From the NCBI GenBank assembly GCA_015501585.1, contig JADNRY010000221.1, positions 1-64,000 of the forward strand: a stretch of DNA of 64,000 bases. Direction: 5' to 3'. Source of the stretch: Rhodocollybia butyracea. Lineage: Eukaryota; Basidiomycota; Agaricomycetes; Agaricales; Omphalotaceae. A program made the position numbers and the translations under genes. Shown here piece after piece: positions 6,006 through 60,955 of this stretch. The notes below the pieces were generated by a model that saw nothing but the letters and a program-made list of their open reading frames with translations, had not been told where the DNA came from and did not search any database. How positions within the stretch are numbered: position 1 is the first letter of the stretch; each line of letters begins with the position of its first letter.

Positions 6006-7524
6006 TGTACGTTGTCCACTTATTGTTGGAAAGGGCTTGAAATCTGATACAGCTATAGGATGATGCAAAGCTATATGTCTATTTATTGACTTGACTTTGA
6101 TATTATTTATGTACTAAACCTTGACTAAACCAATCTTGACTTGACATCAGTTATAGAGGAGCTATCCGGCATAGCATGTACACTTGTGGGAGCGGTACCA
6201 ATGTTATCTCCAATGATACTCAAGGGACTCCAACAATACTCAAGTGACTCCAATATGTAGATGCATACGGGATTGTCAACTCTCAGAGTGAGCAGTGCTC
6301 CAGCAATAATAAAGAGTGAGTAAATGGGCACAAAACAAATGAGTATGAACAAGCAATCTGGTGAGTGACAAACAGGTGCGGCAATGAATGGTTATGATAT
6401 TTTCAAGCGGGTATGAGCGAGCATGGTCCAACAGCAATTAAACAACAAACAGGCACAGGTGCGGCGCCGACAATGAGGGAATTTGGGCACAGTAAGTGCA
6501 GCAGCGGGTGAGAGAATTTGGGCACACTGAATTAGACACTGATAAGTACAATGGCGGGTAAAATGGATTCAACAGCGGCTACAAGCACAACAGATGGCGG
6601 CGAGCATTGAGTCTCATAATCTGTAGATGTGTATGGGATCGTCGACTCTCAGAGCAAGAGGAATCGCGGCGACGTAGTGTACATTCAATAAACTACCTAA
6701 TTATCTAAAAGACGGAGCGACTAGACGACAGTAAGTATACTTTAACACAATACAACTCAAGCAACTCCAATAAAACTCAAGTGACTCCAATTAAACTCAA
6801 GTGACTCCAATTAAACTCAAGTGACTCCAATAAAACTCAAGTGACTCGTACTTGACTCACTCAACTCTAATAAGACTCAAATGACTCCGAGTTGAATTTT
6901 TTAGTGTGACTCAAGCTTGACTCAAGCTTGACTCACTGAACTCCAATGTAACTCAAGTGAACTCAAATGTAACTCAAGTGACTCAAATATAAATATGAGT
7001 CAAACATTTGAGTCACTTGAGTTTGAGTATACTCAAGTCCTTGACTCAACTTGACTCAACTTGACTCAATTTGACTCAACTTGACTCAACTTGACTCACT
7101 TGACTTTTTAACATTTGAGTTCAAGTCAAGTGCGTATAAATTTGGAGTAAGTGGAGTCAAGAGTTATAACATTTTCACTCTGAGTTGGTGAAAGGTTTTA
7201 GATATTCCGTGTCCAGTATTACTTTAGGATAACTAGAGTTTGTTATCCATTGGTATCTAGATAGCTTTGTACACTGCGAAGCTCATTGATGGGTGTATTG
7301 ATCCCATCAAAGCAACTTATGCTAAGGTAAAGACGGTGAGCGGCGAGAATCCCAACCAGAAAACATTCAGCACACTGTTCAGGCTGTAGTACACAATTAT
7401 ACATATTATTTGACATTGTGTAAGTGAACGACTAGGTACTTATGATTTAAGTAGTTGACTCTAATCAATTTGCGTCAAGACTCAAGACTCACCTGACTCC
7501 AAATTTTGACGCAAGACTCACATG
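6006..7524 (+). repeat. 3' region and right subterminal repeats of the MULE
   Basis: After the gene, 6006-6700 is non-coding. From about 6740 to 7160 the DNA is tandem and dispersed ACTCAAGTGACTCCAATT and TTGACTCAAC words, with a local inversion near 6990-7040 that could fold into a cruciform. A second cluster at 7450-7540 is the true inverted counterpart of bases 68-135. Confidence 0.7.
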
Positions 7525-22959: not shown

Positions 22960-24342
22960 CTACCCAAGTGGCACCGCCAGCAAAGGCTCCAAAACATAAT
23001 CATCCAGATTCCATTCCTGCAATGGCACGTCTTGAACAAAAGACCCCTCAGCCTTGACTGGAAAGTCCTCAAAAAACCTCTCCACCATTTCAAGTACAAT
23101 CTGAGGCCACAAGCCATCATATTGGTCTACACGCACGATTAGATTGGTACGTTGTAACACACACTCTGACCGCTTTATTACCCCTTTCAGCTCGCTAACA
23201 GAAGTGGTAGCTTCAAAAGCTCCCCTGGGCTAGTGTTCATGATCAACAAGGCCAGGCAGTGCGACTCGCACTTTGCTCAACTTTGGGAGCGTAACACCGT
23301 TCCAAGCCCCATTTTCGACCTTCGCAAAAGTATATCTCTCCGCAGCGACATGTGATTGGTTGGGCATCCGAGTTTCCTCTGAATTCAAAAGTTTCAAGCG
23401 TTAAGAATTCCAAACAAGGGCATAGGTGAAGTAACCTGGCTAGAGATACACCGATATAGCAGCCAACCGTCAAGACTTCAAGTCTTGACTTGCGATGACA
23501 TCTGCATCTGACTCCGAGAGCTCAGATAAGGTCAGTTTCCGGAGAGGAGGGTGACACTCCAAAATTCGAATCGAATGCTGAGATTTAAATGTCAGATCTT
23601 GGAGAAGTGGAAAATATGGGCGTGTAGAGGAGGATTTGGAAGGGAACCAGCCGTTAATAAATCTCGAAGAAAAAGCCGACGAATTGAATGTAGCTTGCTT
23701 CCATCTATGAGCTTGGGCTACCAAGAGAGAAACGAGAGATGGAAGAAGATCATGGATTACTAGAACAATCCCAATACTCAAGGGTGCCAATACTCCTGAT
23801 CGCAAGATGCATTCACTCAGAAATGCAGTCATTTCAGTGGTGCGTAGAGAATCATCTCGGTTGTGAAAATCAATCTTCATCCTGGACCAGAAGGTAGGGT
23901 ATGAAACAGCCTCATATCGCCACCAGAAGCAGATCCAGGTGAATGAAAGAATGTACCCGGATAGTCTGGTATATCTCCAGGATGTGAAGGTAATACCCGG
24001 TTCACTGGACGTCTCGATGACTTGTTCAAAGATCGCGATCAACACTTCCGAGGGAAGGGTGCTAATAGGAGCTAACAGAGATTCCTGTAGTTCCAGGACC
24101 CTCAAGATCTGGCTATGAGTAGTACCCTCGGAGTATATCTGCAGATCACTTCGGGTCTGATCGATTAGAGTGCGTAATCTAGCTCGGGCAACAGGAGAGT
24201 TGGGGATGTCGTTGTGACGGCTTTTGGTGAGGAATTCTGTGCAGAGTGTCTGGTAGGCAGATTCTATGGAAGAGCACGTTCGAGAATGTGTGCAAGGCAA
24301 GTTTTTGGCGTCCAGCTGATTATGCGGAACGTCGTCCGACAT
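22960..24342 (-). pseudogene. F-box-like protein pseudogene (F-box copy 1)
   Basis: The start at 24342 (MSDDVPHNQ) matches the two intact copies. The first about 290 residues are open, with the F-box-like segment STLPSEVLIAIFEQVI and the ICFWWR..YPTFWSRM stretch. A one-base deletion near 23470-23485 then shifts the frame, about 40 bp are lost near 23340 relative to the copies at 25216 and 27445, and further breaks follow. Recognisable C-terminal sequence (VERFFEDFPVKAEGSF) runs down to about 22980. It lies directly upstream of BUD7, an arrangement repeated in decayed form at 31.7-35.1 kb. Confidence 0.85.
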
Positions 24343-25215
24343 GGTACGTACCACTTTAAGTTAAAGTTAGCGCGTAGTATAGGGTCACATGACTTACTTC
24401 CTATCGTTCCGGCGAGACGTTCCTCCACCTCCAACAGGAGTTTCACAAATATCCAGTTGGAAAAATCGCTAGTACGACAGCAATACGAGCACAGAGATTC
24501 CACAGTATCCTCGTCCAACTTCCGAGTCGTACGGGTCTTAATCTCCTCTCGCGTCTCCTCTCGCGTCGAGTCATCGCTTGGGTAAGATAGATTCGCCGCT
24601 CTGGCCGTGCTGCAGGAAGAGTCGACGAGGACGCCTTTCACTAGCTCTTACAATGTCCAGCCTATCGTGGCGCACGGGCTACATTGGGGGTGTCAGTGGG
24701 ACGGAAGAGCATGGCTATGGAGGGATTGCTGGACAATGAGAAGGTGCTGGAGCCTCTCTTCCAGTTAACGACACGCGCAGGCGATGGAGAAGAAGAGGGA
24801 TTAAGAGCAGTGAAGATAAGGAGTGGAGTTTGGATTTGAGCACTGGTTGATTGATGAAGGTTCAGATTGGGTTCAGATGAGAACCGACAAGGGAGCCCGA
24901 GGAAGGGCAGGTTTTTCTTCTGGTTTCTCTATTCTCTTGCATGCTACTCCTTCTCGCTGTCCATTCTTATTCTCGTCTAATAGCTTATACAATTTCAGCA
25001 CTGTGGCGGTACAGCTGATATCATGCTTATGCGGAGCACAGACCATTTACCAATTTCCATAGTTCACCTCACACACGTCATAGCGTACTGTCTACTGTAT
25101 CCTTCAGGACCATGGGCAATAATCAGAAGTCCAAAAAAGAGTAATATGCCCAATAATGAAGAGTGATCTACAAGCCGTCTTCAAGTATCAAATTTGCAGT
25201 GAGCAATGCAAGCAC
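24343..25215. repeat. Duplicated upstream region of the F-box genes
   Basis: Sequence upstream of copy 1 (24343-24700) is repeated upstream of copies 2 (26605-26960) and 3 (28819-28960), including a TCACATGA word and a CTACATTGGGGG word. Bases 25060-25215 match 27270-27444 downstream of the next copy. The array therefore grew by duplication of units of about 2.2 kb. Confidence 0.7.
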
Positions 25216-26604
25216 TCACCACACCCAATGGTAATTATCCACATTCCATTCCCCAAGTAGCACGTCCTCAATAAACGACCCCTGGGCCTTGACTGGCATG
25301 TCCTCAAAAAACTTTTCCACCATTTCGAGTACCATCTCACGCGGCAGGGAAAGTTGTTCCACACATAACATCAGATTGACATGCTGTAATGCACACTCCG
25401 ACCGCTTCAATACCTCTTTCAACTCACGAAGAGAAGTGTCAGGTTCATAAAATCCATCGGGCCACTGTTCATCGTTGACAAGGCTGGGCAGTGCAACTTC
25501 CAGTTTGATCAACTTGGGAAGCGTAACACAGTTCCAGGCTCCATTTTCGACTACCGGAATATTATCAATATCCCGACCAAGGTCTAAGGTCAATAGGGAG
25601 GATCGACAGGTGATTTGTTGAACATCAGGGTTCGCTACAAAATCAAAAGATTCAAGTGCCAAGGTCTCCAAACAAGGACACACGTGGAGTAATCTGGCGA
25701 GAGATACACCCGTGTAACAGCGAATCTTCAAGGTCTTCAAGCTTCTACTTCCTAAGACATCTGCATATGACTCCGAGAGCTTGACTAGTTCCAGTTTCTG
25801 GAGAGGAGGGTGGCAGTCCAAGATCCAATTAGAGAACGAACAACGAGAGTTGACTGTCAGATCAACGAGAAGAGGAAAGCGTGTAGAGGAGGGCTCGAGA
25901 GGGAATAGGCTGTCAATATGCCGTGAAGATACAAACGACAACTTGATTGTAGCTTGCCTCCATCTATGAGCCTGTGCTACCAACATGGTGACGACAGGTG
26001 GAAGGGGAGCATCAGGGTTTGAAAGAACGATCTCAGTACTCAAAGATGCCGAGACTCCTGATCGCAAAATGAGTTCAGCCAGAAACGCAGTCATTTCAGT
26101 GGTGCGTAGGAAATCATCCTGATGGTGAAAATCAATCTTTATCCTGGACCAGAAGGTAGGGTATGAAACAGCTTCATATCGCCACCAGAAGCAGATCCAG
26201 GCGAGTGAAAGAATGCACCCGGATAGTCTGGTATATATCCTGGATGTGAAAGTGATACCCGGTTCACCGGATGTCTCAATGACTTGTTCAAAGATCGCGA
26301 TCAACACGTCCTCGGGAAGAGTTCGAATGGGAGCCAACAGAGATTCCTGCAGTTCCAGGACCCTCAATATCTGGCTGTGAGTGGTACTCTCGGAGCATGT
26401 TTGCGAATCGCTTCGAGTCTGATCGATTAGAGTGCGTAACCTAGCTCGGGCAACAGGAGAGTTGGGGATGTCGTTGTGGCGGCTTTTGGTGAGAAATTCT
26501 GTGTAGAGTGCCAGGTAGGCAGGTTCTAGGGAAGAGCACGTTTGAGAATATGTGCAATGCAAGTTTTTGGAGTCCAGCTGACTATGTGGAACGTTGTCCG
26601 ACAT
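25216..26604 (-). CDS. F-box-like domain protein, copy 2 (intact)
   Basis: A single-exon gene of 462 aa beginning MSDNVPHSQL. An N-terminal helical segment (LRTLIDQTRSD and the following LELQESLLAPIRTLP) leads into an F-box-like domain near residues 95-150 (LPEDVLIAIFEQVI, WICFWWR, YPTFWSRI). A leucine-rich C-terminal part of about 300 residues follows, as in agaricomycete F-box/LRR-type proteins. Such proteins would link a substrate to SKP1 in an SCF ubiquitin ligase; the substrate is unknown. The neighbouring paralogue at 27445 is clearly similar over its whole length. The C-terminus differs slightly (NYHWVW), probably through a late stop shift. Confidence 0.85.
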   Translation of the reverse strand: MSDNVPHSQLDSKNLHCTYSQTCSSLEPAYLALYTEFLTKSRHNDIPNSPVARARLRTLIDQTRSDSQTCSESTTHSQILRVLELQESLLAPIRTLPEDVLIAIFEQVIETSGEPGITFTSRIYTRLSGCILSLAWICFWWRYEAVSYPTFWSRIKIDFHHQDDFLRTTEMTAFLAELILRSGVSASLSTEIVLSNPDAPLPPVVTMLVAQAHRWRQATIKLSFVSSRHIDSLFPLEPSSTRFPLLVDLTVNSRCSFSNWILDCHPPLQKLELVKLSESYADVLGSRSLKTLKIRCYTGVSLARLLHVCPCLETLALESFDFVANPDVQQITCRSSLLTLDLGRDIDNIPVVENGAWNCVTLPKLIKLEVALPSLVNDEQWPDGFYEPDTSLRELKEVLKRSECALQHVNLMLCVEQLSLPREMVLEMVEKFFEDMPVKAQGSFIEDVLLGEWNVDNYHWVW

Positions 26605-27444
26605 GGTGGTACCACTTTAAGTTGAAGTTAGCGCGTAGTCCAGGTTCACATGATTTCCTTCCCATCGTTCCGGTGAGACGTTTCCACCTCCAACGGCAGT
26701 TTCACAAATCTCCAGTTGGACAGATCGCTTGTACGACAGCAATACTAGCACGGAAACTCCGCAGGATCCTGAGTCCTCGTCCAACTTCCGAGTTGTATGG
26801 GTCATAATCTCCTCTCGCGTCACCTTCATTGCTTGAGTAGGATTAATTCGCCGCTCTGGCAGTGCAGCAGGAAGAGTCGACGAGGACGCCTTCCACTAGC
26901 TGTTACAGTGTCCAGGCCATCGTGGCGCACGGGCTACATTGGGGGCATCAATAGTACAACGAGAAGGTGCTGGAACCTCGGTTCCAGTTCATCAACGAAA
27001 CACCAAACCAACGAAACACACAGGTTTTGACATATTTCTGGTATGCTTCCACTGATCATGAAGAGTGGTGAAGAGCAGGAGCGGAATTTGAGCAGTGGAC
27101 GAAGAGAACCGACAGAGATGTTATTTTATTTTATATCCATTTTTTCTTCTCACTTCTCTCTCACCGTCTATTCTCACTCTCATTTTATAGTCTATATGAC
27201 TTCAGTGGCACTATGGCATTACAGCATATTCTCGCGATCTCATGCTTATGTGGAATTAACCCAGACCAGTTACCAGTTACCATAGACATACACACATATC
27301 GTAGCGTACTGTCTACCGTATCCTTCAGGACCATGGGCAATAATCAAAAGTCAAAAAAAAGAGTAATATGCCTGACAATCACGAGCGATCTACAAGTAGC
27401 AAGTATCAAATTTGCAGCGAGCAATGCAAGCACAGCCATCGCTC
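26605..27444. repeat. Spacer between F-box copies 2 and 3, duplicated
   Basis: The copy 2 promoter side (26605-26960) resembles 24343-24700. The copy 3 downstream side (27270-27444) resembles 25060-25215. A T-rich stretch of about 60 bp lies at 27120-27180. No other gene seen. Confidence 0.65.
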
Positions 27445-28818
27445 TCAATCGTAGTCATCCAGACCCCAATCCTGCAGTGGCACATCCTCGACAAAAGACC
27501 CCTCGGCCTTGACTGGTAAGTCCTCAAAAAACTTCTCCACCAATTCGAGTGCAATCTCAGGCAACAAGTTATATTGCTCCACGAACAATATCAGATTGAC
27601 GTGCTGTAATGCACACTCTGACCGCTTCAGTACCTCTTGCAGCTCGCTAACAGAAGTGTCAGCTTCATAAGCTGCCGTGGGCCAGTGTTCAGCATCGACA
27701 AGGTCGGGCAGTGTAACTTCCAGTTTAGTCAACTTGGGGAGTGAAACACAGTTCCAGGCCCCGTTTTCGATCCTCTCATCGTTATCGACGTCCCCACCGA
27801 TGCTTAATGTCAATAGGGAGGATCGACAGGTGATTTGATTAGCATCAGGATTCCCTGCGAACTTAAAAGATTGGAGTGTCAAGGACTCCAAACAAGGGCA
27901 GAGATGGAGTAACTTGGCAAGAGATACACCCTGGTAATAGCCAACCTTCAAGACCTTCAGGATTCGACTTCCCAAGACACCCACATATGACTCTAAGAGC
28001 TCGCCTAGTTCCAGTTTCTGGAGAGGAGGGTGACAGTCCAGAATCCAATCAGAGAACGAACGGCGAGAGCTGACTGTCAGATCTTCGAGAAGAGGAAAGC
28101 GTGTAGAGGAGGGCTCGAAAGGGAATAGGATGTCAATATACCGTGAAGACACAAACGACAATGTAGCCTGTTTCCATCTATGAGCCTGTGCTACCAACGT
28201 GGTAACAACAGGTGGAAGAAGAACATCAGGATTAGAAAGAATGATCTCAATCCTCAAAGGTGCTGAGACTCCTGATCGCAAAATGAGTTCAGCCAGAAAC
28301 GCAATCATTTCGGTGGTGCGTAGCGAATTATCCTGGTGGTAAAAATCAACCTTTATCCTGGACCAGAAGGTAGAGTATGAAACAGCCTCATGTCGCCACC
28401 AGAAGCATATCCATGTGAGTGAAAGAATACGGCCAGATAGTTTGGTGGATATCCAGGATATGTAGGTGATACCAGGTTTACCAGATGTCTCAATGACTTG
28501 TTCAAAGATCGCGATCAATACATCCGAGGGAAGGGTGCGAATAGGAGCTAACAGAGATTCCTGCAGTTCCAGGACCTTCAAGATCTGGCTATGAGTGGTA
28601 CTCTCGGAGCATGTTTGCAAATCGCTTCGGGTCTGATCGATTAGAGCGCGTAACGTAGCTCGGGCAACAGGAGAATTGGGGATGTCGTTGTGGCGGCTTT
28701 TGGTGAGGAATTCTGAGTAGAGCGCCTGGTAGGCAGATGATAGGGAAGAGCACGCTTTAAAATGCCTGTAAGGCATGTTTTTGGAGTCCAGCTGACTATG
28801 CGGAACATTGTCCGACAT
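27445..28818 (-). CDS. F-box-like domain protein, copy 3 (intact)
   Basis: A single-exon gene of 457 aa starting MSDNVPHSQLDSKN. It has the same plan as copy 2: helical N-terminus, F-box-like segment (TLPSDVLIAIFEQVIE, WICFWWR, YSTFWSRI) and a leucine-rich C-terminal part with CPCLESLTL. It ends GLDDYD, which matches the decayed copy 1 end better than copy 2 does, so this end is probably ancestral. No disabling mutation seen. Role: probable SCF substrate receptor, inferred from the F-box; substrate unknown. Confidence 0.85.
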   Translation of the reverse strand: MSDNVPHSQLDSKNMPYRHFKACSSLSSAYQALYSEFLTKSRHNDIPNSPVARATLRALIDQTRSDLQTCSESTTHSQILKVLELQESLLAPIRTLPSDVLIAIFEQVIETSGKPGITYISWISTKLSGRILSLTWICFWWRHEAVSYSTFWSRIKVDFYHQDNSLRTTEMIAFLAELILRSGVSAPLRIEIILSNPDVLLPPVVTTLVAQAHRWKQATLSFVSSRYIDILFPFEPSSTRFPLLEDLTVSSRRSFSDWILDCHPPLQKLELGELLESYVGVLGSRILKVLKVGYYQGVSLAKLLHLCPCLESLTLQSFKFAGNPDANQITCRSSLLTLSIGGDVDNDERIENGAWNCVSLPKLTKLEVTLPDLVDAEHWPTAAYEADTSVSELQEVLKRSECALQHVNLILFVEQYNLLPEIALELVEKFFEDLPVKAEGSFVEDVPLQDWGLDDYD

Positions 28819-36750: not shown

Positions 36751-37826
36751 ATCTGTAAGCAATACTGGGATAATCAAGATGACCATGCACCCTGTTCAGC
36801 TCAGAAAATTGTTAGATTAATGAATGGAAGTCAAGGGAATGGGTGCGAGGGAGTTTGCATAAGAGCGATGGCATCCAGCAGGCCATCGGTGAAGATGGGG
36901 AGGTCGTGATTGACGGCGATGTGCATTGGAATGGCGCTCCTTGACGAGTGGTGATGCAAGAATGTATTAGGCTCCAAGGAGACACTGCATGTTGAAGTGA
37001 CAAACCGGGCAGCGATGGGGGACAAAACATTCGTCGCCTCTGACTCTAGCGGCAGCTGGCACTAAGTCAAGACAATCCAGCCACCGGAGGAACAAACAGA
37101 ATGTAGAGCAGGGAGAGGGTTTAAGAAGAAGTGCGAAGGTGTCAGTGGTGAAAAAAATCGCAATTCAAGAGTATCCACCCACCGGAGTGAGCCTGCAAAG
37201 ACCAACAACCAAACAATTGTTCATTCAATATAACCAAAACCCGCATGTAACCCTCTTATCCATCAGGTTTGGAGTTCGTCCATCTTGTAATGTGACGAGG
37301 GAGTGGCGGGTGTCCTAAAGAAGGGAAGTTAGGCAAAAGCAGAGACCGATGAATGAACTGTACCTTTGAGTCAGCAAAAATGGACTAGATCCAAACGGAG
37401 GGCATGGCTAGTGGTCAGCCAATTGGCAAAGGGATTGCATGAAGTTATATCCAGTTAGAGCCTATTTGCAGCCAGTAAAAATGTTAGTTGTAACAATGAG
37501 ATGCCGATGGGACAGCGTGACAAGCTTGTGGTCATCTTCCGCAATCGTTGGGTGACGTAGCAAGGAGACACCGAGGTAGCTGAGCCGACTGCAAATACAC
37601 TCTAATGTGGCAGCAGTGACACAGCGTGTAACGTGGGAGATGGTGTTAAGGTAATGGTGAAGCTTTGAAGCACTGTGTGGATACTAGTGCTGCTAAAATG
37701 GCTACAAAAAATGAGAATCTCCTGTATTGGTTTGAGTATTGAGGGACTCACAAAACCACTGGTCACAGCTTCAATAACAACAACCCTCCGAGGCCAAATT
37801 GTGTTAAAGGTATGATTTATACAAAG
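36751..37826. other. Intergenic DNA; possible body of a tRNA-derived SINE at its right end
   Basis: No gene recognised. If the tRNA-like sequence at 37827-37901 is a SINE head, its body would run leftward from 37826 on the minus strand. Confidence 0.35.
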
Positions 37827-37901
37827 TGTCCAGACTGGGGATTGAACCCAGGACCTTCTGGTGAAATCCCAAGATGCTCTAACCAACTGAGCTATCTGGC
37901 C
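37827..37901 (-). tRNA. tRNA-like sequence (tRNA pseudogene or SINE head)
   Basis: On the minus strand a perfect box A (TAGCTCAGTTGG) and box B (GGTTCAATCC) are spaced as in a tRNA. The D arm (GCTC/GAGC) and T arm (CTGGG/CCCAG) pair fully. The acceptor stem has one mismatch. The anticodon arm pairs poorly and leaves an 8-nt loop, so no anticodon can be assigned. This argues for a pseudogene or a tRNA-derived SINE. A polymerase III promoter is likely intact. Confidence 0.7.
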
Positions 37902-38192: not shown

Positions 38193-38420
38193 ATGTTTAC
38201 GTGGCTGTGCTCTTGTGCGGAATTTGCATGTCCGCGGCCCGAACACTTTTGTCAAAGTTGTTATGACTCGATCAATAGTCTCGTCCAAACCTTCACAGTA
38301 CGTAACTCAGCAGTAAAAATGATAAGAGAAATTAATGAGATTATAGAGCAAGCCTTTCCATTCGTTGAAACCGCTAGGCAAAAAATATATACTCAAACAA
38401 CTAGGCTCAAGTACAGTTAG
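38193..38420 (+). CDS. Short open frame before the hairpin array, uncertain
   Basis: A 75-codon frame whose C-terminal half is protein-like and helical (MIREINEIIEQAFPFVETA). It could be the end of a decayed element gene. The hairpin array starts 31 bp after its stop. No homologue recognised. Confidence 0.2.
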   Translation: MFTWLCSCAEFACPRPEHFCQSCYDSINSLVQTFTVRNSAVKMIREINEIIEQAFPFVETARQKIYTQTTRLKYS

Positions 38421-38451
38421 TAACTAGTTTGTAACGCAAAACTCACAGAAG

Positions 38452-38809
38452 TTATTATTTGGAGATAACTCGACAAATAATAATATGATTACCCTCGGAG
38501 ATAGCTCAACAAGCAGTAATATGAATCAGAACTAGTACTTGGAGATGGCTCAACAAGTAGTAGTGAGTGTGGTGTCTAATACTTGGAGATAGCTCAACAA
38601 GTAATAGTGAGTGTGATGTCTAATACTCGGAGATAGCTCAACAAGTAATAGGAAGTTGCAACTCGGAGATAGCTCAACAAGTGGCAATTAAAGAAGTATT
38701 CACTAGGAGATAGCTCAACAGGTGAATATTAGTGGATACAACTTGGAGTTAGCTCAACAAGATGTATAAATGTGTATTGTAGCTTGGAGATAGCTCAACA
38801 AGATACAAT
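38452..38809. repeat. Array of nine constant-loop, variable-stem hairpins
   Basis: Nine units spaced 36-44 bp. Each has a loop of the form GAGATAGCTCAA (12 nt) between arms of about 9-11 nt that pair with each other but differ between units. Unit starts: 38452, 38489, 38532, 38576, 38620, 38656, 38697, 38736 and 38776. Example arms: TTATTATTTG/CAAATAATAA, TTGCAACTCG/CAAGTGGCAA, TATTCACTAG/CAGGTGAATA and ATTGTAGCTTG/CAAGATACAAT. Inside the loop GAG can pair with CTC, leaving a variable 4-nt tip (ATAG, ATAA, ATGG, TTAG) and a 2-nt bulge. Function unknown. It lies about 300 bp upstream of a TATA-like box. Confidence 0.9.
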
Positions 38810-38945
38810 GAGTTGGTCTGGTGATTCACACAAGTGATAACAGCAAACAAGTGGGGGTTTGGATTTAAGAAAAATAATACGTCTACTGTACATTGGTAAA
38901 TCTAGCCTTCTTATATACTGTTTAATATGTACTAGTTAGGAAATG

Positions 38946-39108
38946 CTGCGGAATGACTAGATTTGAGTCATAACTGCGGAAATGCTGCGGATTGATCAGC
39001 CTGACTGTGGATGCTGTGCAATGACTGATGGTGAATCATTTAAGCAGAACTGTGATTGACTGATGTTGAGTCATTCAGTGGAACCGGAATTGAGTAATAA
39101 TGAGTCAA
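38946..39108. repeat. Second set of short inverted repeats (TGACT/AGTCA)
   Basis: Four or five units of about 45 bp with cores such as ATGACT-7 nt-AGTCAT, ATGACT-7 nt-AATCAT and TGACT-7 nt-AGTCA, separated by TGCTGCGGA-like words. Less regular than the array at 38452. Confidence 0.6.
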
Positions 39109-39113
39109 TACTG

Positions 39114-39120
39114 TATATAA
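39114..39120 (+). promoter_or_regulatory. TATA-like box downstream of the hairpin arrays
   Basis: TATATAA followed by GGGTCTG. It could drive a transcript to the right, or be the promoter in the U3 of an unrecognised LTR. No gene follows within 700 bp. Confidence 0.35.
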
Positions 39121-39292
39121 GGGTCTGTGCAGCATTATCTCAAGCGGTGTGAAGAGAAAATGAGTAATGAATGTGTGTAATAAGTGTGAAGTAGGAATGT
39201 TAATGATAGTGGCCATAGTTGGTTAATAGAAGAAAAAGGTGGGTGCATAGGATGTGGATGTGGGTCATAACAAAAGTAGTATGTAGATTAGT

Positions 39293-50717: not shown

Positions 50718-51238
50718 AGTTTATGGCGGCACAGTCCCTCACAATGACACTACTGTGTAAGTATGGTGGTCCCGTGGAAGTATGGTGGTCCCATGTACTG
50801 GGACAGAGCTTGTAGTGACTGTATATTGCTATATTCAGTGATCAGACTCGGACCAAGTAGTTACTAGTAAGATGAGCAAAGAAATCAAAATTAAGGATCA
50901 TAAATTTATACCAAAAATAAACCTAAACCATAAAACGGCTACAGCCTTCCTGTGGCTAAACTGAAGAGTGGGATCAATAGAGGACATGCTGAGGGTCTTG
51001 CAGAAATGTAGATAAGGTGCATTGATAAGTGGAGGAATGGCCAGCAAAGTCGACATGAATTTGTAATAATGGCCATCAGTGATTTTGATGTGCCGAATCA
51101 CCGATAGCCATTTCTGGCTTGTTGAGAGTGTTGTCTCTTCTTGTCCAGAAGGCAACTAGATCCTATTTTTTCTGAGGATTGAATAAATTACCTAAGTTGC
51201 TCTACCCTGACATTAGTCAAAATGATTGCCTTAATTCT
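50718..51238. other. Intergenic DNA
   Basis: Nothing recognised. Confidence 0.4.
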
Positions 51239-51241
51239 TGG

Positions 51242-51616
51242 CACTATGATTGTTTGCTCAAAGGCAATCCAGATGATTGTCCCCAATAGGAGACAATCTC
51301 ACTGATTGTCCCCAATAGGAGACTATCTCACTGATTGTCCCCAATAGGAGACAATCTCACTGATTGTCTTGGGTTCGTCACTCTAAATGATTGTTTGCTC
51401 AAGACAATCATTTTGATTGTCCTTAATAGTAGGCAATCCAAATGATTGTCTTAAATTGGGCACTCCAAATGATTGTCCTAAGTTGTGGGCATTCTAAATG
51501 ATTGTTTGCTCAAGACAATCAAAATGAGTGTTTGGCAAAAAAACATCTAAATGATTGTTTTTTCAAAAAATGATTGTCTCAGACAATCAAATTAATTGTT
51601 TTTCCTTCCCATAGTG
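51242..51616. mobile_element. CACTA-like MITE with ATTGTC repeats, 375 bp, TSD TGG
   Basis: It starts CACTATG and ends CATAGTG, flanked by TGG on both sides (51239-51241 and 51617-51619). The interior is repeated ATTGTC/GACAAT words, including three tandem copies of a 30-bp unit (ATTGTCCCCAATAGGAGACA...). Similar words just left of 51242 mean the left boundary is less certain than the right. Confidence 0.55.
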
Positions 51617-57059: not shown

Positions 57060-59560
57060 CCAAGGGAGAGATGGCAAAAACATCAAAAATCACCTAAGTG
57101 AGACTGACCAGGGGGAGATGACCCAGATGGAAAGTGACCAGGAAGTGAGTGGAGGAGCATAGAGAGGGTCCTAAGCGAATGTGAATGGGCCCTACCTCGG
57201 AAAAATTGAATGGAAATTGAATGAGTTATGGCAAAAACATTGAAAATCACCTATATGATGAGAGAGTGATGGAAAAAGCTGGGAATTGCTCTAGCGTGAG
57301 TACAGCGACAGTGGGGGGTACCTAGGGGATCTAAACGAGCCCTGGACGAAAGAAATCGAATGGAAACTGATGGAAATATGGCAAATACAGCGAAAATCAC
57401 CTAAGTGAGACTGACCAGGGGGAGATGACCAAGATGGAAGGTGACCAAGAAGTGAGTAGAGGAGCATGGAGAGGGTCCTAAGCGAATGTGAACGGGCCCT
57501 ACCTCGGAAAAATTGAGTAAAAATTGAAGAAGTTATGGCAAAAACATTGAAAATCACCTATATGATGAGAGAGTGATGGAACAAGTTGGGAATTGCTCTA
57601 GCGTGAGTAAGGCGATAGTGAGGGGGTACCTAGGGGATCTAAACGAGCCCTGGACGAAAGAAATCGAATGGAAACTGATGGAAATATGGCAAATACAGCG
57701 AAAATCACCTAAGTGAGACTGACCAGGGGGAGATGACCCAGATGGAAAGTGACCAGGAAGTGAGTAGAGGAGCATAGAGAGGGTCCTAAGCGAATGTGAA
57801 TGGGCCCTACCTCGGAAAAATTGAATGAAAATTGAAGGAGTTATGGCAAAAACATTGAAAATCACCTATATGATGAGAGAGTGATGGAAAAAGTTGGGAA
57901 TTCTCTAGCGTGAGTAAGGCGATAGTGAGGGGGTACCTAGGGGACCTAAACGAGCCCTGGACGAAAGAAATCGAATGGAAACTGATGGAAATATGGCAAA
58001 TACAGCGAAAATCACCTAAGTGAGACTGACCAGGGGGAGATGACCCAGATGGAAAGTGACCAGGAAGTGAGTAGAGGAGCATGGAGAGGGTCCTAAGCGA
58101 ATGTGAATGGGCCCTACCTCGGAAAAATTGAATGAAAATTGAAGGAGTTATGGCAAAAACATTGAAAATCACCTATATGATGAGAGAGTGATGGAAAAAG
58201 TTGGGAATTGCTCTAGCGTGAGTAAGGCGATAGTGAGGGGGTACCTAGGGGATCTAAACGAGCCCTGGACGAAAGAAATTGAATAAGAACTGATGGAATT
58301 ATGGCAAAAACAGCGAAAATCACCTAAGTGAGACTGACCAGGGGGAGATGAATAAGATGGAAAGTGACCAGGAAGTGAGTGAAGGAGCATGGAGAGGGTC
58401 CTAAGCGAATGTGAACGGGCCCTACCTCGGAAAAATTGAGTGAGAATTGAAGGAGTTATGGCAAAAACATTGAAAATCACCTATATGACGAGAGAGAGAT
58501 GGAAAAAGTTGGGAATTGCTCTAGCGTGAGTACAGCGACAGTGAGGGGGTACCTAGGGGATCTAAACGAGCCCTGGACGAAAGAAATTGAATGAGAACTG
58601 AGGGAAATATGGCAAATACAGCGAAAATCACCTAAGTGAGACTGACCAGGGGGAGATGACCAAGATGAAAGGTGATCAAGAAGTGAGTAGAGGAGCATGG
58701 AGAGGGTCCTAAGCGAATGTGAACGGGCCCTACCTCGGAAAAATTGAGTGAGAATTGAAGGAGTTATGGCAAAAACATTGAAAATCACCTATATGACGAG
58801 AGAGAGATGGGAAAAAGTTGGGAATTGCTCTAGCGTGAGTACAGCGACAGTGGGGGGTACCTAGGGGATCTAAACGAGCCCTGGACGAAAGAAATTGAAT
58901 GAGAACTGAGGGAAATATGGCAAAAACAGCGAAAATCACCTAAGTGAGACTGACCAGGGGGAGATGACCAAGATGAAAGGTGATCAAGAAGTGAGTAGAG
59001 GAGCATGGAGAGGGTCCTAAGCGAATGTGAACGGGCCCTACCTCGGAAAAATTGAGTGAGAATTGAAGGAGTTATGGCAAAAACATTGAAAATCACCTAT
59101 ATGACGAGAGAGAGATGGAAAAAGTTGGGAATTGCTCTAGCGTGAGTACAGCGACAGTGGGGGGTACCTAGGGGATCTAAACGAGCCCTGGACGAAAGAA
59201 ATTGAATGAGAACTGAGGGAAATATGGCAAAAACAGCGAAAATCACCTAAGTGAGACTGACCAGGGGGAGATGACCAAGATGAAAGGTGATCAAGAAGTG
59301 AGTAGAGGAGCATGGAGAGGGTCCTAAGCGAATGTGAACGGGCCCTACCTCGGAAAAATTGAGTGAAAATTGAAGAAGTTATGGCAAAAACATTGAAAAT
59401 CACCTATATGATGAGAGAGAGATGGAAAAAGTTGGGAATTGCTCTAGCGTGAGTAAGGCGATAGTGAGGGGGTACCTAGGGGATCTAAACGAGCCCTGGA
59501 CGAAAGAAATCGAATGGAAACTGATGGAAATATGGCAAAAACAGCGAAAATCACTTAAGT
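57060..59560 (-). repeat. Left array: about eight 308-bp dimers of a 154-bp monomer
   Basis: Each dimer has two related halves that begin AAAATCACCTA and end ATGGCAAAAAC. The halves differ in core: GGGCCCTACCTCGG in one, CGAGCCCTGGACGAAAG in the other. The roughly 103-codon frames on the minus strand change frame at each unit (308 is not a multiple of 3), so the array is taken as non-coding. Confidence 0.85.
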
Positions 59561-60060
59561 GAGAATGAACTGAGGAGTGCTGAACAACATGGGGAACTGA
59601 TCATATGAGATCAAAGCAGCATAGAGAATGTCTTTAGGCAATGTGAGTGAGCCCTACTTTGAAGAAATTGCATGAAAACTGCAGGAGATATAATAAGAAG
59701 ACAAAAAAAATGCCTAAGTCTGATGGTCATGTGTTAACTTATGACAAATCATTCAACTTGCATGTTCTCGCTCCTCCACCATCGTCTCTGGGATTCCCTG
59801 CTGTGTTGCCAACAAATCCATCCACCATTAGTCTTTCTTTATTACCCATTTGTTTTGTTTATTTTCTCACTGTAACTGTCTTTCTCGAGAGGCCGAGCTT
59901 GGACATGGTTAAGATAGCACAGTTACAGGCAGCTGCCACCTTTCTCGAGGTTCTTTGGAACTGGTCATGATAGAGCGTTGCATTTTTACTCCTTCTTACT
60001 GTTCCTCTCTGCCTCTTTAATCTTGTCTCAGCAACTCCCCATACTGTCTGTCCCACTTAG
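59561..60060. other. Single-copy centre of the large element
   Basis: It separates the two opposed arrays. A plus-strand frame (59647-59970) runs through it but has no recognisable domain. Confidence 0.4.
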
Positions 60061-60955
60061 GTGAGCTTTGGTGTTCTTGTCATATCTCCTTCAGTTTTCA
60101 CTCAATTTCTTCGATGTAGAGCTCGTTTAGATCCCCTAGGGACCCTCTCCCCACCGCTTCAATATTGTTTGAATAGCTCCCCATCGTGGTTACTGTCCCC
60201 AGGTCAGTCTCACTTAGGTGATTTTCGCTGTTTTTGCCATAATTCCATCAGTTCTTATTCAATTTCTTTCGTCCAGGGCTCGTTTAGATCCCCTAGGTAC
60301 CCCCTCACTATCGCCTTACTCACGCTAGAGCAATTCCCAACTTTTTCCATCTCTCTCTCATCATATAGGTGATTTTCAATGTTTTTGCCATAACTCCTTC
60401 AATTTTCACTCAATTTTTCCGAGGTAGGGCCCGTTCACATTCGCTTAGGACCCTCTCCATGCTCCTCTACTCACTTCTTGATCACCTTTCATCTTGGTCA
60501 TCTCCCCCTGGTCAGTCTCACTTAGGTGATTTTCGCTGTTTTTGCCATATTTCCCTCAGTTCTCATTCAATTTCTTTCGTCCAGGGCTCGTTTAGATCCC
60601 CTAGGTACCCCCTCACTGTCGCTGTACTCACGCTAGAGCAATTCCCAAATTTTTCCATCTCTCTCTCGTCATATAGGTGATTTTCAATGTTTTTGCCATA
60701 ACTCCTTCAATTTTCACTCAATTTTTCCGAGGTAGGGCCCATTCCCATTCACTTAGGACCCTCTCCATGCTCCTCCACTCACTTCTTGGTCACTTTCCAT
60801 CTTGGTCATCTCACCCTGGTCAGTCTCATTTAGGTGGTTTTTCCTGTTTTTGCCATATTCCCCTCAGTTTTCATTCCATTTCTTTGTTATAGGGCTCGTT
60901 TAGATTCCCTAGGTACCCCCTTACTATTGCTGTACTCACGCTAAACTTTGCTATT
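60061..60955 (+). repeat. Right array: nearly three dimers, opposite orientation
   Basis: Same monomers as 57060-59560 in reverse orientation, so the interior can fold back over about 0.9 kb. A first half-unit at 60061-60225 is diverged. Confidence 0.85.

Follow-up and report, generated by a model that had tools for sequence, protein, structure and literature searches.

A tandem array of hairpins with a near-constant head in the predicted RNA leader of a self-priming Ty3/gypsy chromovirus of Rhodocollybia butyracea

How do neighbouring hairpins keep one loop nearly constant while their stems differ from unit to unit and still pair? This question is raised by a locus of the basidiomycete Rhodocollybia butyracea that lies within the first 64,000 nucleotides of contig JADNRY010000221.1 (assembly GCA_015501585.1), the whole of which was analysed and is hereafter called the window. 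The initial annotation had described nine tandem hairpins there and offered two explanations, namely selection on pairing or a process that copies an arm in reverse around a fixed core.

The hairpins were delimited by alignment and folding of the units. They are numbered s1 to s9 along the minus strand, the sense strand of the carrier element described below, with the unit numbers of the initial annotation in brackets:

38777..38808, minus strand: hairpin s1 (unit 9)
38736..38767, minus strand: hairpin s2 (unit 8)
38697..38728, minus strand: hairpin s3 (unit 7)
38656..38687, minus strand: hairpin s4 (unit 6)
38620..38651, minus strand: hairpin s5 (unit 5), similar central unit
38576..38607, minus strand: hairpin s6 (unit 4), similar central unit
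38532..38563, minus strand: hairpin s7 (unit 3), similar central unit
38488..38520, minus strand: hairpin s8 (unit 2), whose stem contains an internal loop
38452..38483, minus strand: hairpin s9 (unit 1), with a perfect 10-bp stem

The nine units, of approximately 32 nt each, occupy positions 38452-38808 with a spacing of 36-44 nt from start to start. Their core is near-constant (GAGATAGCTCAA on the plus strand, with at most two changes) and their arms vary between units, those of units 3, 4 and 5 (s7, s6 and s5) being near-identical to one another. On the sense strand, a unit consists of a ten-pair stem, commonly with one pyrimidine-pyrimidine mismatch, followed by a UU or UC bulge, three base pairs (GAG/CUC) and a 4-nt tip. 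The fixed part of the hairpin is thus a bulged head, UU-GAG-NNAN-CUC, and the tips found in the window array are CUAU, CUAA, CCAU and UUAU. The 3-bp head can form in 9/9 units; an alternative 2-bp head, preferred by the folding program, fails in s2. The loop had been described as changing in its 4-nt tip alone, which holds for the most part, one change in unit 1 falling in the 2-nt bulge.

Pairing was counted on the plus strand without gaps, over ten arm positions per unit and with Watson-Crick pairs only. Units 1 to 9 make 10, 4, 9, 9, 8, 8, 8, 9 and 9 pairs between their own arms, a total of 74/90. When the arms were re-dealt among units in 100,000 permutations, the pairs averaged 54.5 and never exceeded 73, which confirms the nine tandem hairpins. 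With G-T counted as a pair, the own-arm total is 75, for a re-dealt mean of 62.0 and maximum of 75 (100,000 permutations, P = 4e-5). We also merged units 3, 4 and 5 into one, using majority sense-strand arms. The resulting seven units form 56/70 own pairs, a value reached by 1 of 5,040 arrangements, or 60/70 with G-U included, reached by 4 of 5,040. In a plain tandem minisatellite the units would be alike and their arms unrelated; here, own-arm pairing exceeds the re-pairings. The figure of about 8-10 paired positions out of 10, given initially, is correct for eight units; unit 2 has 4/10 pairs when ungapped and does better only with an internal loop. As for the CTCG arms, the pairs are indeed broken on the plus strand, but they are G-U wobbles on the minus strand.

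Covariation was also assessed by counting paired cells in the nine aligned units. On the sense strand, 89.7% of cells are paired, compared with 78.0% in shuffles, and 14 cells are changed on both sides, compared with 4.4; neither value was reached in 500 shuffles. The diversity of pair types in the nine-unit alignment is not unusual (163/500 shuffles). When the register is slid, paired cells fall to 37-50%.

We then searched the genome (95.6 Mb, 1,381 contigs) for the loop, as had been recommended, and found GAGATAGCTCAACAAG at 1,475 exact places, with none in the reversed control. A looser unit pattern retrieved 2,577 units and a single one in the control, and unit 9 (s1) gave 346 matches genome-wide with up to 3 mismatches. 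A non-A base follows GAGATAGCTCAAC at 3 places in the genome and at 1 in the control. The 100 loci fetched correspond to 61 distinct leaders, 23 duplicates and 16 loci with an unrecognised end. All 61 leaders are inside long terminal repeats (LTRs), which rules out that the hairpins form a free-standing element. The features of the LTR present in the window are as follows:

38259..39272, minus strand (element sense): solo LTR of a Ty3/gypsy chromovirus, with ends TGTTATGAC...GTCATAACA, recognised by its inverted ends and by family LTRs flanking coding elements
38254..38258, no strand assigned: left target-site duplication AAAGT, from the sequence
39273..39277, no strand assigned: right target-site duplication AAAGT, from the sequence
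38911..38917, minus strand: TATATAA box, 34 bp upstream of the primer sequence, from the sequence
38873..38883, minus strand: predicted start of the RNA with the self-primer GACGTATTATT, which matches the primer-binding site (PBS) of intact copies by complementarity, from the sequence
38259..38883, minus strand: predicted 625-nt RNA leader (R-U5), whose single ATG is located at a CpG-type site, from the sequence

This LTR of 1,014 bp has TG...CA-type inverted ends. Because AAAGT is found on both sides and no internal region is present, we consider it a solo LTR. In the family, a perfect 5-bp duplication borders 25 of the 29 LTRs that adjoin neither a PBS nor a polypurine tract. The U3 region of the window copy harbours, at 38939-39075, short direct repeats of its own, some with TGACT...AGTCA mini-palindromes.

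At the Rfam gathering score the array is unmatched, and the only match in the 64-kb window is a tRNA-Lys gene (anticodon TTT, 37826-37901), approximately 360 bp from the LTR. The idea that the element targets tRNA genes was abandoned, as a tRNA was found in the fetched stretch at 0 of 34 other loci scanned. Other repeats are present in the window. A second short inverted-repeat array (51221-51600, TGATTGTC...GACAATCA) has the opposite design, with similar arms and variable loops. At 6748-7105 there is an array of repeats of 10, 11 and 20 bp, based on CTCAAGT/ACTTGAG and on TGACTCAA, with many nested inverted repeats. A 308-bp tandem unit is present in eight copies at 57071-59568, and a further block of 308-bp period at 60197-60943 has a unit that, by eye, looks like its reverse complement. 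Lastly, three related F-box-like frames are arranged in tandem on the minus strand at 23470-28818, with many relatives from Rhodocollybia butyracea. A database search with an F-box-like protein of the window gave 28 relatives, and those carrying a species name are all from this mushroom.

Which kind of element carries the array? Family LTRs occur in pairs, with distances of 4.7, 5.5 or 10.5 kb. Six pairs were compared and show 0, 0, 3, 0, 1 and 6 differing positions between their two LTRs, with gaps in addition in the last pair, and this near-identity indicates that the insertions are young. In family copies, gag and pol proved to be encoded on the strand opposite to the one on which the array was first read, and we consequently dropped a candidate plus-strand U3 promoter array that involved a TATA-like stretch near 39110. 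In one copy, a single Pol ORF contains the Pfam domains RVT_1, RNase H, integrase, SH3_Tf2-1 and Chromo. This family member therefore has the reverse transcriptase-RNase H-integrase order and the C-terminal chromodomain of Ty3/gypsy chromoviruses; the window copy is without a coding part. Database relatives of this Pol show 39-68% identity among the 120 matches listed of 7,262, and the named ones among those 120 come from mushrooms (Lentinula edodes, Termitomyces) and other eukaryotes. Searches for Pol relatives in viral contigs yielded no match with a first pattern and 111 pattern matches with a second, none of which is a relative. Judging from these sequences, the carrier is a Tf1-type, high-copy Ty3/gypsy chromovirus, an element known in kind.

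In two shorter copies (C705 and C578), gag-like frames with what we take to be a zinc-knuckle motif were seen, and no pol in the pieces read. Pfam recognised a retrotransposon gag domain in one of two such frames and nothing in the other. The shorter copies (loci L055, L056 and L103 for C578; L059, L060 and L102 for C705) share their leader with the pol-bearing 10.5-kb element.

In Tf1/sushi elements, a cut by RNase H between nucleotides 11 and 12 of the RNA releases the primer. In our family, 50 LTRs were drawn from the 100 loci, of which 28, including the window copy, were unresolved by the script and 22 were duplicates. TATATAA lies exactly 34 bp before GACGTATTATT, with up to one mismatch in the latter, in 48 of these LTRs; the other two are without an exact TATATAA. 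The stretch that directly follows the 5' LTR, TAATAATACGTC, ends in 11 letters complementary to GACGTATTATT. The predicted RNA 5' end, as placed by the TATA box, can thus pair over 11 nt with AATAATACGTC. A search for the exact LTR-PBS junction gave 52 hits genome-wide and none in the control. The gag ATG is located 17-18 nt past the PBS in 14/14 copies, two of which have an extra ATG 4 nt before. In Tf1, the first 11 nt of the RNA are reported to pair with the PBS before being cut off as a primer (PMC7175516), and the same self-priming arrangement has been proposed for Tj1 (PMC4600332). From the position of the primer downstream of the TATA box and of the complementary PBS after the 5' LTR, it follows that the hairpins fill a leader of approximately 625 nt between the predicted self-primer and the PBS. 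This anatomy, with a self-primer, the array and a PBS, is well supported.

What might the array do in such a leader? We put about even weight on the proposal that it is a cis-acting RNA structure of the self-priming chromovirus leader, which provides repeated Gag-binding sites on stems distinct enough for each hairpin to fold with itself. The hairpins share one head (UU/UC bulge, GAG/CUC 3 bp and 4-nt tip), carried by stems that differ in sequence from one another. The head would be a putative site for the zinc-knuckle Gag of the element, and its repetition 7 to 12 times would make Gag gather on the RNA, where it would package that RNA and help the 5' end reach the PBS. The differences between stems would favour folding of each hairpin with itself and prevent reverse transcriptase or recombination from collapsing the array; in line with this mechanism, the similar central units s5-s7 would be those that vary in number. 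We infer that the head is read by Gag from the contrast between a fixed head and stems that are free but paired, from the repetition of the hairpins, from the presence of a zinc-knuckle Gag and from the leader being shared with seemingly pol-less copies. More tentatively, the 7-12 bulged heads on mutually different stems might form a multivalent docking array that recruits Gag, joins the 5' end to the PBS and allows full elements to carry gag-only relatives along.

The position of the array between primer and PBS is also what would be expected if the hairpins were a mere RNA scaffold, compacting the 600-nt leader so that the primer meets the PBS and RNase H can cut, with a head that binds no particular protein. 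Unconstrained folds of 5 of the 14 leaders (two of them identical) close the primer-PBS helix in 5/5 cases. The predicted pair probability of this helix is 0.96-1.0 in four leaders (0.73 at the last pair) and 0.66-0.90 in the L038 leader, in which a primer mismatch leaves one position unpaired. In these five folds, the mean own-pair probability of the hairpins ranges from 0.33 to 0.95 for s1-s4 and s9 and from 0.17 to 0.74 for the central units, and similar central units mispair with one another in some of the folds; the value of 0.07-0.34 for s8 arises because its internal loop is outside the scored register. RNA structures of Tf1 are likewise described as permitting pairing between the 5' end and the PBS (PMC7175516). 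However, any stable hairpin should suffice for compaction, and a scaffold leaves unexplained why the bulge, GAG/CUC and most of the tip are constant while the stems differ. We therefore find this explanation rather doubtful.

The leader is strongly depleted in start codons. In the same 50 LTRs, 11 ATG were counted in 31.7 kb of leader (0.35/kb) and 659 in 25.5 kb of U3 (25.8/kb). Among the 61 leaders, 46 have none, 13 have one and two have more. Dinucleotide shuffles of two leaders with 1 and 0 ATG contain on average 10.4 and 9.3, and 0 of 2,000 shuffles are as low. As 58/61 leaders hold 10-12 CAT, the depletion affects the sense strand only. It suggests that ribosomes traverse the leader, and the folding energy of single units on that strand is -7.5 to -10.1 kcal/mol; moderately stable hairpins might thus delay or control ribosomes that scan an AUG-poor leader on their way to gag. 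Such translation control has no need of a shared head sequence, however, and AUG depletion would be equally expected of a leader whose hairpins serve packaging, which makes this role unlikely as the reason for the array.

Conservation of the leader was compared with that of U3, gap columns not being counted. For pairs of LTRs with U3 identity below 0.9, divided into four classes with mean U3 identities of 0.49-0.85, mean leader identity is 0.969-0.977, values biased upward by array- and leader-based searches that favour conserved leaders. The leader is the more conserved part in 842/842 such pairs and in 926 of all 1,225 pairs, with the same sampling bias. Among the 364 pairs with U3 at least 97% identical, it is more conserved in only 65 (means of 0.981 for the leader and 0.990 for U3). 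Our only check on the bias consists of six 5' LTRs picked by the PBS alone (6 of 52 junctions), all of which contain array units, with five units and no recognisable primer sequence in L105 and some units lost in L106. At positions 239-741 of the latter, a 5' LTR that adjoins an exact PBS, several hairpins are missing and a chimaera of the s1 5' arm and a central-unit 3' arm is present.

Variants shared by at least five copies were sorted by site over the 61 leaders, with the exclusion of CpG-context sites and of columns with fewer than 40 letters. They affect 0/142 paired and 5/26 mismatched stem sites; in the head, 0/51 GAG/CUC, 0/15 bulge and 2/36 tip sites; and elsewhere in the leader, 3/67 spacer sites, 0/71 sites before the array and 4/167 after it. 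The difference between paired stem and spacer sites has P values of 0.03 at 5 copies and 0.73 at 2 copies, and that between paired stem sites and all non-hairpin leader sites of 0.10 and 0.79, respectively, all four values being optimistic because of the common descent of the copies. Such multi-copy variants are small in number and share descent; several mismatched sites represent one position across the similar central units, and one site is scored as mismatched solely because its majority letter does not pair. The common CpG changes in the 3' arm (CGAG to CAAG or TGAG) retain a standard pair on the sense strand. On this strand, G-U pairs outnumber A-C pairs (341 vs 109 in 564 unit instances), an excess first considered as proof of an RNA role and not retained as independent evidence, since 244 of the 341 G-U come from one pair of CpG type. 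Among the 61 leaders, we saw no case in which both sides of a paired position had changed in a compensatory manner; covariation therefore exists between paralogous units only and stems from older divergence.

The number of units varies from 7 to 12 across the 61 leaders, mainly in the central class, with 197 units as opposed to 60-62 in each of the other classes (two units were dropped from this count). Arm-swap chimaeras, of the kind expected from loss between two cores, represent 9 of 741 units at 82 places from 106 loci, 59 of the 741 being unclassified.

These data bear on a mutational origin without selection, in which inverted copying by template switching at a fixed foldable core would match the arms to each other and the repeats would be passengers. 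A fixed core flanked by arms that match their own partner only is what such a process would leave, arm-swap chimaeras through the core do occur, and compensatory change within the family is missing. On the other hand, mismatches are not repaired at position 7 of the central units, where 0/197 instances show a Watson-Crick pair and one shows G-T, yet of 60 copies of s3, 32 have C-A and 28 have T-A as their outermost pair. In addition, variants in at least five copies avoid paired sites and the leader is conserved while U3 turns over. We regard this origin as improbable. Of the two options initially offered, selection on pairing as RNA is thus the better supported, although on the strand opposite to the one first read, and arm copying was not seen at work; the preference rests on the location of the hairpins, in a retrotransposon RNA whose 5' leader is AUG-depleted, and on multi-copy variants that avoid paired sites.

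Predicted folding of the array is not strand-specific, with z-scores against shuffles of -4.35 for the sense RNA, -3.2 for the antisense RNA and -4.1 (-4.05) for DNA, and with similar mean unit energies (sense -9.0, antisense -8.7 kcal/mol). Some retrotransposons, such as gypsy with its insulator, bear arrays of protein-binding sites near their 5' ends, and DNA folding parameters also yield hairpins (z -4.05), but sites for a chromatin or transcription protein, or a cruciform, at the transcribed start of the LTR are very unlikely to explain the array, since DNA binding would require a constant site rather than variable paired arms, the spacers have 1 G in 69 letters of the majority string on the sense strand, and ATG is depleted on that strand only.

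How does the array, in the RNA-structure reading that we favour, compare with known systems? With Tf1 of Schizosaccharomyces pombe and Tf1/sushi elements, the family shares complementarity between the PBS and the 11 nt at the RNA 5' end, an end that is predicted in our case, as reported for those elements (PMC7175516, PMC4600332), and with Tf1/sushi chromoviruses the chromodomain and the Tf2-1-type SH3 domain in Pol. The accounts of Tf1, Tj1 and Tcn1 on which we drew mention no such leader array, unlike the approximately 625 nt with 7-12 tandem common-head hairpins described here. The 5' RNA of Ty1 and Ty3 similarly comprises a cis-acting region for packaging and the start of reverse transcription; these elements are tRNA-primed, and the source sections consulted report no tandem hairpin array in their 5' RNA (PMC4974528). 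The shorter LTR copies in which only gag-like frames were seen resemble non-autonomous elements of the TR-GAG type, which, according to the sources at hand, have been described mostly from plants.

Beyond retrotransposons, the array recalls the dispersed packaging signals put forward for satellite tobacco necrosis virus 1 (STNV-1) and others, in which, as these are presented in the texts consulted, several stem-loops with a shared loop motif and variable secondary structures are proposed to bind the coat protein. The array likewise combines multiple stem-loops, a shared head motif and variable stems. By those same descriptions, the viral signals are scattered and degenerate, whereas our hairpins are in tandem with near-identical heads. 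Since an in vivo role in plants was reportedly looked for and not found for the STNV-1 signals (PMC6475782), the analogy serves as a lead only.

In the limited literature searched, partly aimed at priming, packaging and gag-only elements, no tandem hairpin array is described for the leader of a fungal LTR element. The initial assertion that no fungal element of this design had been described thus stands, within that literature, for the hairpin array and not for its carrier, an ordinary Tf1-type chromovirus: the leader design looks new, the carrier known in kind. The RNA packaging marks of LTR retrotransposons are reported not to be precisely defined even for the yeast Ty elements (PMC4974528). 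Near-identical heads on distinct stems would constitute an unusually simple and countable signal, in which the dependence of packaging or self-priming on the head, on pairing and on hairpin number would be separable. The array would also suggest how repeats escape collapse under reverse transcriptase, by keeping their stems different.
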